Shown here in pieces: positions 15,501-25,534 of a DNA stretch of 64,000 nt. The stretch is from the NCBI GenBank assembly GCA_034670405.1, contig JAXDDX010000010.1:8194501-8258500 (forward strand). Direction: 5' to 3'. The stretch is from Hoplostethus atlanticus (lineage: Eukaryota > Chordata > Actinopteri > Trachichthyiformes > Trachichthyidae). Below the pieces are notes generated by a model, which had not been told where the DNA came from, ran no database searches, and saw nothing but the letters and a program-made list of their open reading frames with translations. Every line of letters begins with the position of its first letter. Within the stretch, counting starts at the first letter, position 1. The position numbers and the translations under genes were made by a program.

Positions 15501-18500
15501 TACTTGTTTAAGTTCAGGGTAACAAGCCATCCATTTCCTCTCGTCCTGCGTTCTATAATGGGTGTGCCAGGTGAAGGAGAGGACTGATTGAGACAGAGAA
15601 CGAGGTCAACCAGTCCCTACAATGATTACACTACTCAACATCTTCCACTGGTGGAAAATACGGCCTATTTTCAAGCAAGGACTTTGTACGATGAACGGAA
15701 GAAAATAATTAGACTAATTTCCCACAGACCAGCCCGTGCGTCATCGGTGTGTCACTGCGATGAAGTGTGAAGGTCTGGTTGGGGCAAAAGTCTTGTTTTT
15801 TTTACCTTTAAGACTGGGTAGTGACAGCCATTAGATCATTTGGAGTTTGGATGCTATAACTTGTTTCTTTGAGATGAGAAAAAACGGGTGAACATGGTGA
15901 TTTTGGTTGGATTGATTCATTTGTAGCTCTGTACATTTTTTGCTTCTACAGCAGGCCCCCGGCAAATCGCAGACCGGTCCGGATCCAGGTCCGGTGATGG
16001 TTCTAGCCGCATCGAGCCGCATTCATTTCTCATACATTGATAATATTGACAGGGCGTTATTTTGAGTGTCTGGTAAAAGCTGGGAAAGTTCAAGTTCAAG
16101 TTCAAGTCTACCCCCACGCAACCAACCATGTAATATTTGGACATCCTTGTTGTTGCTGCTCATTCCAGTCAGTTTAGTCATGCTGCTCATAGGTCAAACA
16201 CCCTAATATGTTTCAACCTTCACAATGTTAAAAACCTGTTGAATCAATAACAATGTTTAACAACATTTACAATAAATATGGTTGGTTATTATAGGCCTCT
16301 GAGTCATAGCGCAAGTTTAATATTATGACAGGTTCGGACCTTTTCTGGGGAGGAAATTTGAAATTTGGACCTTTGAAGTTATTTTGTGCAGCTATTCACC
16401 ATTTTTTAACGAAAGGCCAATATCTGCCTGACATATGAGCATAACGTTATCAGTCTAACCCTAATGCATACCTTCCTTTATGGACGGGGCCTGCAACATC
16501 TGCTTGTAGTAGGAGTAGTACAGCCCACACTCTGTCCGAAAGGAGATCTCGCGCTCAACTTCCTGGAATGGAAAGCAGAAATGGGAACACACTTATAGGA
16601 AACCCAGAAATCCTGCCGTCCATATGGAAAACAGATACTTTGGCAAGACATGAGAGAAACAAGTAGGATAGGAGCAGAGCCGGATGAGCAGCTAATACAC
16701 TGGTAATCCTCCACAACAGCAACAATAAGACAGGTGCACAGTGTGTGTGGGTGTGGGTGTGTGTGTGTGTGTGTGTGTGTGTTTCTCAGAGTGTGTGCTT
16801 TGGGATGATGTCTTCCCAAGAGATTTCCTGTTAGCAATGCATCATTACTGTTCCACTGAGGGGTAAAATAGAGAGCAAACAGTGAACGAGGAGCAGAAGA
16901 ACAAAATAAATATCTTTCATATTCAATTGAATTGTTTCCTTTCTCTTTTAATCACATAACAACATAAACTACTACCCTGAAATTCATGAAATGCATGAAA
17001 AAGCTAATCCACCCTGAGGCAAAATTCACATGCACTAACTACACAAAATATTCTGACCACCTTCCAAATATTGAGTGTTAGTGCTTTTGCCCAATCTATG
17101 TCTCAATAAGGCTTTAAAAACCTGTGCAGCCTGTGTCCTCCCCTTCAGCTATATCTCACCTTCACAACCAAAGTGGATTGAATGGCACAAATCAATAAAT
17201 GATCATAGCTTTCATCTGGATTCACCTAGGCAGTCAGTATTTCGCGGAGAGAGTAGTTAGCCCTAATATTGATCTGAATCTAAACATGGTCTAGTCTCTC
17301 CCACAGCTAGAGAACACAGAGATCTCCCTTGAGGATGTCCTCAGGAGATAAACTGTGAACCTCTTCTTCATTGACAGTGAATGAAAGACTCACATTGTGA
17401 GGAAAATGACAGCAATGGCCATGAAAACACTGAAAATACAGTTCAATTCAGTGCGATTCAAGTCAGAAGGGCTTTAAGAGCCAAGGTGCTGAGGTAGCTG
17501 TGTACATTTTTTACAGAAGTTTATTGTTGTAGTGGGCGGCTCCCAGATGTGAGCGTATCTGTATGTTGCTATACCTCAGGCTGTTACTGCGAATGTGTTC
17601 TTCTGCGTTCACCTTTCCCCCAAATTGCACCTTTGGTACTTCTAAGTAAACGGGGAGCAGCTGCAAGAGGGATGGACAGCGGCTGCTTTAGAAATAGGCA
17701 TTGCACCTGGTTTCTTTTCAGAGTGCTTTCTAAAGTTGAGAAAAGTTCAACACATAACCAGGATTGCTTTTGTGTGAGCCGACCAATCACAGCAAAGTCG
17801 AGTACTAGTTGTAGTAGTTGGAACTCTGAAACACATACTCCATACTGACTCTATGATCAGAGTACTGTAGTAGTGGCAGCTACTACAGCAAGTAGTTATG
17901 AAAGCAAACTCACATTTTGTCATCAGCACAAAATGTTGCTGAGGTAGCACTTTTTGTACAAAACAAATCAGTCAATCAATCAAAAGTGTCAATACGCCCT
18001 TAGCCGACATGGATGGAAAATTAAGGGTTTAAAGACATAGAGTCTGCATTTTGTCACCAAACTAGTTCCTACCGTGAGGTGAGAGAACCACAGCAGATTC
18101 TCGTGTATGGCGTTAACACACCAGGCCTGAGCCAGGGCCAGCAGCACAGCCAATACAAGCCCTGCTGCCATGGTAACACACCGTTGCCAAGGCCACAGGG
18201 GCAGAATGTCTGAGCCGGAGCGGTTCCCGGATCCTCCCGGTGGGGAAGCCTCCCCCGACCCCGCTGCCTCCTGGTCCTCCTCTGAAAGGCCCCAGTAACG
18301 CTCCAGTTTGCTCAGCTTGGCTCTCCTACGGAGCTCCATCGATAGGTTATCAATGCCTTATCGTATCCTTTGATGGGCTGAATCGAGGTAGATAAACAGC
18401 GTGCTCCTGGGTTGTGCCGCACACTGATCCAAATCCATAACAGCGATAAATGCAATGTGCTTCCTTTCTCGAAGGCAATCCGATGAATTCGTTTTTTTAA

Positions 18501-25534: not shown

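Follow-up and report, generated by a model that had tools for sequence, protein, structure and literature searches.

The dpy19l3 gene of Hoplostethus atlanticus, which codes for an enzyme that adds mannose to tryptophan residues of secreted proteins, appears to have two alternative 5' coding ends that read in frame into the same downstream exon. One of these, the distal pair of exons, encodes the N-terminal tail and the first transmembrane segment (TM1) in the form that resembles the human protein; the other, the proximal exon, is a single exon that carries its own start codon, a tail and a second version of TM1. We estimate a probability of roughly two in three that the proximal exon (positions 18073-18339) truly serves dpy19l3 as an alternative first coding exon, that it arose by duplication of a TM1 exon, that its promoter most likely is a separate one, and that it affects the regulation or placement of the enzyme. 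According to this scenario, the proximal exon would descend from a copy of the TM1 exon, perhaps of exons 1 and 2 without the intron between them; its transcription would most likely start at a separate promoter in the CpG-rich stretch just upstream, and the mRNA would join the shared exon (16472-16562) in phase 0. The predicted product is a C-mannosyltransferase with a different tail, a different TM1 and Leu in place of Asp at the site equivalent to Asp53 of C. elegans DPY-19, with the catalytic base and all downstream exons common to both forms.

The gene is located on contig C10 of the 632.8-Mb genome, within the 64,000-nucleotide stretch of DNA that we analyzed (hereafter, the window). The search of the 632.8-Mb genome with the Pfam Dpy19 family yielded 32 matches at three places, namely the window together with its left flank, contig C6 and contig C96. 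Alignment with human DPY19L3 (a guide sequence and the only paralog compared) produced 14 segments of the window gene in the same order, with about 45-79% identity, and the genes on C6 and C96 matched this guide more poorly. From features of their sequences, we take the C6 gene to be dpy19l4 and the C96 gene to be dpy19l1. Membership in the Pfam Dpy19 family and the best likeness to human DPY19L3 among the three genes support the assignment of the window gene to dpy19l3 that was made in the original prediction, at least with the human guide sequence as the reference. Stops are present inside two of the 14 aligned segments, at spots that resemble intron read-through, and the downstream exons, read as far as the last but one, are intact. 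The number of Dpy19 genes in this genome is the same as that reported for fish, namely three (PMC1475853).

Several features of the genomic setting were observed alongside this gene. Many dpy19l3 introns (window positions 1-14100 and the left flank) contain long CA/GT or CT runs directly at the splice sites, which could tie splicing to repeat length. Upstream of dpy19l3 and on the same strand, there is an 848-codon open frame with C2H2 zinc fingers (44189-46732, minus strand), possibly znf507, the neighbor of DPY19L3 in the human genome. A 288-codon frame on the plus strand (60352-61218) consists of tandem repeats (LAYTMLSDSRLHAN etc.), is partly open on the other strand as well and resembles a minisatellite.

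The anatomy and the reading frame of the two ends can be read directly from the DNA (Table 1). The proximal exon consists of 267 nt, that is, 89 open codons from the ATG to the end CTCACG/GTAGGA (the slash marks the exon-intron boundary), in phase 0, with the hydrophobic span at residues 54-72. The coding part of the distal pair (25417-25534 plus 24620-24747) comprises 246 nt, from the ATG to ATCAAG/GTGAGG, also in phase 0, and its TM1 exon shows 55.6% identity to the human DPY19L3 guide sequence over 36 amino acids. Both ends continue without a stop into the shared exon, the acceptor of which (TTCCATTCCAG) ranks in the top 0.40% of the 8566 AG dinucleotides in the window; apparently, the same phase-0 boundary exists in the dpy19l4-like gene of this genome. 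The proximal donor ranks in the top 3.32% of the 7781 GT dinucleotides in the window, below the distal donors and above two apparent donors of dpy19l3 (13912 and 12136), by splice-site weights that are vertebrate consensus frequencies rather than values trained on this genome. The original description of two ends, with their coordinates, phase-0 junctions with the shared exon and HENxLWFS endings, holds at the sequence level, and so does the claim that the proximal exon has its own ATG with an in-frame stop ahead of it: the TAA at 18360-18358 begins 21 nt upstream of that ATG and closes a short upstream open reading frame, and use of the acceptor at 18377 would remove the start codon of this upstream frame from the mRNA. 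The context of the proximal start codon is mediocre, with T at position -3 and G at +4. The two forms also differ as described, in the cytosolic tail, which starts with MELRRRAK in the proximal and with MTVLRQRK in the distal form, and in the residue that follows HEN, which is Leu in the proximal exon (HENLLWFS) and Asp in the distal one. The hydrophobic span is stronger in the proximal form (KD19 maximum of 2.22 vs 1.78 in the distal form).

Table 1. Features of the 5' region of dpy19l3 and their positions in the window
Feature	Position	Strand	Description
Shared exon	16472..16562	-	joined by either end; carries the equivalent of the presumed catalytic Glu71
CpG-rich stretch that covers the proximal exon and its upstream side	18001..20250	.	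putative second promoter
Proximal alternative first coding exon	18073..18339	-	ATG, charged Gly/Pro-rich tail, hydrophobic span, donor ACG/GTAGGA
Upstream ORF, 26 codons, same frame as the proximal exon	18358..18438	-	starts at 18438, closed by TAA 18360-18358
Two possible acceptors 5' of the proximal ATG (for exons starting at 18592 and 18377)	18377..18592	-	possible leader entry
Distal exon with TM1	24620..24747	-	phase-0 donor AAG/GTGAGG
Distal exon with N-terminal tail	25417..25543	-	begins at 25543 behind an acceptor; ATG at 25534; phase-1 end
CpG-rich stretch on the 5' side of the distal exon	25501..26500	.	putative main promoter, with a predicted non-coding leader that would end near 26298

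An open frame in an intron might spell HENLLWFS by chance. A degenerate DNA pattern for HENxLWF matched nine sites in the 632.8 Mb, compared to one match for the backward-read control, and two of the nine are the dpy19l3 exons. The remaining seven evidently are chance matches, but none of these continues as FSxxx followed by GT, whereas the proximal site is found in the right intron, on the right strand and in the right phase, and aligns at the DNA level with the distal exon. A looser version of the pattern had its only sense-strand match within 16563-24619 at the proximal site. Taken at face value, these observations leave chance with next to no probability.

The codon composition of the proximal exon was compared to that of dinucleotide-preserving shuffles because the exon is GC-rich, with codon weights derived from 1122 codons of the three Dpy19 genes of this genome. 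The 89-codon frame was open in 1223 of the 20000 shuffles, and only 21 were open with an equal or better codon score, close to the outcome of the same test of the codon score for the distal pair (23 of 20000). When the exon was divided, the score of the 43-codon tail was matched in 250 and that of the rest of the exon in 447 of 20000 shuffles. For comparison, 3.8% of the 89-codon windows that lie at 1-30 kb and avoid the listed exons were open, and 0.16% of the open ones scored as high as the proximal exon.

The relationship between the two ends is most apparent at the exon ends. In a two-sequence comparison, the ends of the proximal and distal exons align in DNA over 44 nt with 79.5% identity (E-value of 3.5e-5), and across the last 26 codons, 43 of the 78 nucleotides are identical and 35 differ. 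The global similarity of the two N-terminal protein sequences was matched by 1 of 2000 shuffles. When spliced to the shared exon, the proximal exon yields a match to Pfam Dpy19 with 70.9 bits (E-value of 8.9e-20) over residues 67-118, which includes the last 23 residues encoded by the exon; the corresponding score for the distal end is 84.5 bits. Collectively, the alignments and the codon statistics support the conclusion that the end of the proximal exon is homologous to the end of the TM1 exon of dpy19l3, in frame, coding-like and equipped with a usable donor, and the proximal exon very probably is a real coding sequence, judging by these features.

Searches with the proximal exon alone gave far less. 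It matched no Pfam family up to an E-value of 10, compared to an E-value of 0.001 for the distal TM1 exon alone, and a search of PDB sequences did not find C. elegans DPY-19 up to the same limit of 10. The only PDB match, to a viral glycoprotein, was weak (E-value of 0.15) and was rejected as unrelated. As a query against its own genome, the proximal exon retrieved only itself at an E-value of 0.001 or better, and the distal exon was not retrieved. Much of the 70.9-bit score of the spliced proximal form comes from the shared exon, which alone scored 54.8 bits in the genome search; if the Pfam and genome searches are comparable, the proximal exon contributes about half as much to the score as the distal end does. 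A pattern scan of prokaryote and viral contigs matched 596 prokaryote and 47 viral stretches, none of which encodes a relative of the exon, as expected. The DNA search with 18060-20600 produced at least 15 matches, of which the non-self ones fall at query positions 72-169 and in CA/GT runs; by that search, the proximal exon is not a repeat. There were no Rfam matches in the window at gathering scores, and among ten chosen open frames in 18946-23475 that were examined for a nested gene, none matched a Pfam family above the cut-off (one weak match had an E-value of 0.0044).

Similarity outside the exon end is limited. Without the last 13 residues, the similarity between the proximal and distal proteins is weak (matched by 82 of 2000 shuffles), and the similarity of the first 16 residues is weak too (50 of 2000). 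The dpy19l4-like tail, compared over its first 16 residues, is much closer to the distal tail (0 of 2000 shuffles) than to the proximal tail (90 of 2000), although by eye, an M(x)LRxR start can be discerned in the proximal, distal and dpy19l4-like exons. The similar lengths of the two N-terminal regions (89 vs 82 residues) together with this start motif make it possible to guess that the proximal exon arose as a copy of exons 1 and 2 fused together, and it stays a guess because the tail similarity to the distal form is weak. Of the exon duplication that was suggested originally, the part that holds is the homology of the exon end to that of the distal TM1 exon.

The weakness of the tail similarity and the lack of a Pfam match for the proximal exon alone would also be compatible with a dead or dying copy of the TM1 exon, one that has ceased to be transcribed or spliced. 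Such a copy, however, would have kept an open frame, coding-like codons, the donor and the motif despite much divergence. In simulations of neutral decay that involved substitutions only and accordingly were generous to a dead copy, the ATG, open frame, motif and GT all persisted in 169 of the 20000 runs with 15% change, in 33 with 20% and in 7 with 25%; no run with 30% or 45% change retained all four. Given that 35 of the 78 compared sites differ and yet these features are intact, a long-unused copy is improbable, although how improbable depends on the split of the changes between the two copies; overall, we rate a dead or dying exon as quite unlikely.

The proximal exon could alternatively contain a mutually exclusive version of exon 2, such that distal exon 1 would be joined at an internal acceptor of the proximal exon and only TM1 would be swapped. 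An AG in the right phase does exist (exon start 18209, phase 1) and would delimit a 137-nt exon, similar to the 128 nt of its distal counterpart, but this acceptor scores -2.57 bits, and the sole internal acceptor that scores higher than 2 bits (18126) does not have the required phase. Moreover, the tail sequence ahead of 18209, which would be left out of such an mRNA, is the coding-like part described above, matched by 250 of 20000 shuffles and, by eye, starting with M(x)LRxR. Such a swap of TM1 alone therefore appears very improbable.

A further question is how transcripts with an alternative first coding exon would be initiated. The distal ATG exon is preceded by a good acceptor (exon start 25543, top 1.02% of the 8566 AGs) only 9 nt before the ATG, which is why we infer that a non-coding leader precedes it and that this exon probably is not the first exon of the transcript. 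A candidate donor for such a leader, AGG/GTGAGG at 26298, scores 5.62 bits. The same leader could then serve both ends from one promoter, being spliced either to 25543 or to one of the two moderate acceptors that precede the proximal ATG, at 18592 and 18377; a leader joined at either of these would do no harm to the frame. The proximal exon would in that case still be an alternative exon, though it would not mark an alternative promoter. For this reason, the in-frame stop does not compel a separate promoter, and the earlier statement that the proximal exon needs its own promoter is too strong. The two acceptors, however, score 3.04 and 2.11 bits, respectively, so that they rank no higher than the top 3.74% and 5.35% of the AGs, and a single promoter would leave the CpG-rich stretch at the proximal exon without a role. 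We regard one promoter with two splice routes as unlikely.

What can be retained of the original statement is that the CpG-rich stretch mildly favors a second promoter. Within it, the bin 19501-20000 contains 32 CpG dinucleotides, the second highest count among 255 bins (median of 10), with an observed/expected ratio of 0.94, the fourth highest. On the distal side, the bin 25751-26250 contains 29 CpG with a ratio of 0.98 and ranks third of the 255 bins by both measures. The CpG content is not specific to promoters because other bins are equally CpG-rich and the top one by count (36001-36500, 33 CpG) is largely inside a 178-codon open frame; the highest observed/expected ratio is near 50.5 kb. 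A simple motif scan of 18.34-20.6 kb identified one SP1, one CCAAT and one E-box match, and no TATA box; on the distal side, the scan identified a CCAAT match and a TATA match. Taking the CpG-rich stretch as the guide, a second promoter for the proximal exon seems likelier than a shared leader. Close to this stretch, the segment 20432-20529 shows 76-85% matches at several other places of the genome and resembles a dispersed repeat.

If the proximal exon is an alternative first coding exon, the choice between the two ends would swap the cytosolic tail, TM1 and one residue at the membrane/lumen boundary; a review reports a cytoplasmic orientation for the N-terminus of human DPY19L3 (PMC8433626). 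In the structure of C. elegans DPY-19, Glu71 presumably acts as the catalytic base, and the two long lumenal loops include EL1 (PMC10154233). Counting on the alignment of the distal form with that structure (7zlg_A), Glu71 corresponds to the Glu within FRTE, which the shared exon encodes; because this exon is common to both, the residue is present in either form. By the same alignment, the Asp/Leu position corresponds to Asp53 of C. elegans DPY-19; this position is occupied by Asp in the dpy19l1-like gene and by Lys in the dpy19l4-like gene of the same genome. With the presumed catalytic base in the shared exon, a change of chemistry is not expected. We infer that the difference would lie in expression, placement or partners: exon choice would be likely to affect the place and timing of enzyme synthesis, as well as the membrane placement or partner contacts of the N-terminus. 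A version of this scenario in which a duplicated and re-fused 5' exon pair gives rise to two working C-mannosyltransferases, with two promoters and different tissues, clients or places in the ER, seems to us doubtful.

Different 5' exons on a common body, with alternative first exons and promoters, are a common theme and are known from fish genes. The arrangement in dpy19l3 is similar in that two 5' coding exons join one common exon, here in sequence rather than in RNA, and differs from the usual alternative first exons in that the alternatives are related copies, each supplying a membrane span. Within the DPY19 family of C-mannosyltransferases (Pfam PF10034, GT-C fold), it is the distal N-terminus that is similar to the human protein, and the window gene departs from human DPY19L3 in the possession of a second in-frame N-terminal/TM1 exon with Leu instead of Asp after HEN. 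A functionally tested isoform of the human protein has been described as well: isoform 2, a splice variant that lacks most of the C-terminal ER domain and is reported to have no known activity (PMC10972723). That isoform alters the C-terminal part, whereas the proximal form alters the N-terminus and keeps the rest. The accessible text of a 2026 review (PMC12990085) contains no mention of N-terminal DPY19L3 variants, and a literature search on DPY19L3, with partial coverage that leaves subscription literature largely outside, found no alternative N-terminus among the matches listed, in line with the earlier impression that such an exon pair had not been described. The architecture is of a common kind and, as far as these searches go, has no earlier description in dpy19l3.

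These considerations bear on the interpretation of work in fish. C-mannosylation by DPY19L3 supports the secretion of a thrombospondin-repeat protease, and targeting of dpy19l3 in medaka disturbed optic fissure closure in about 5% of the crispants (PMC8256286). Guide T1 of that study, as given there, matches the shared exon, with 20 of 23 letters alike by eye; hence both forms should have been hit in these crispants, and the phenotype would not be form-specific. If fish make two forms of the enzyme, reporters, antibodies, morpholinos and guides that are based on the distal first exons would miss one of them. Furthermore, an alternative TM1 beside the catalytic loop would offer a natural test of the contributions of TM1 and of the FEND/HEND residue in a GT-C enzyme.
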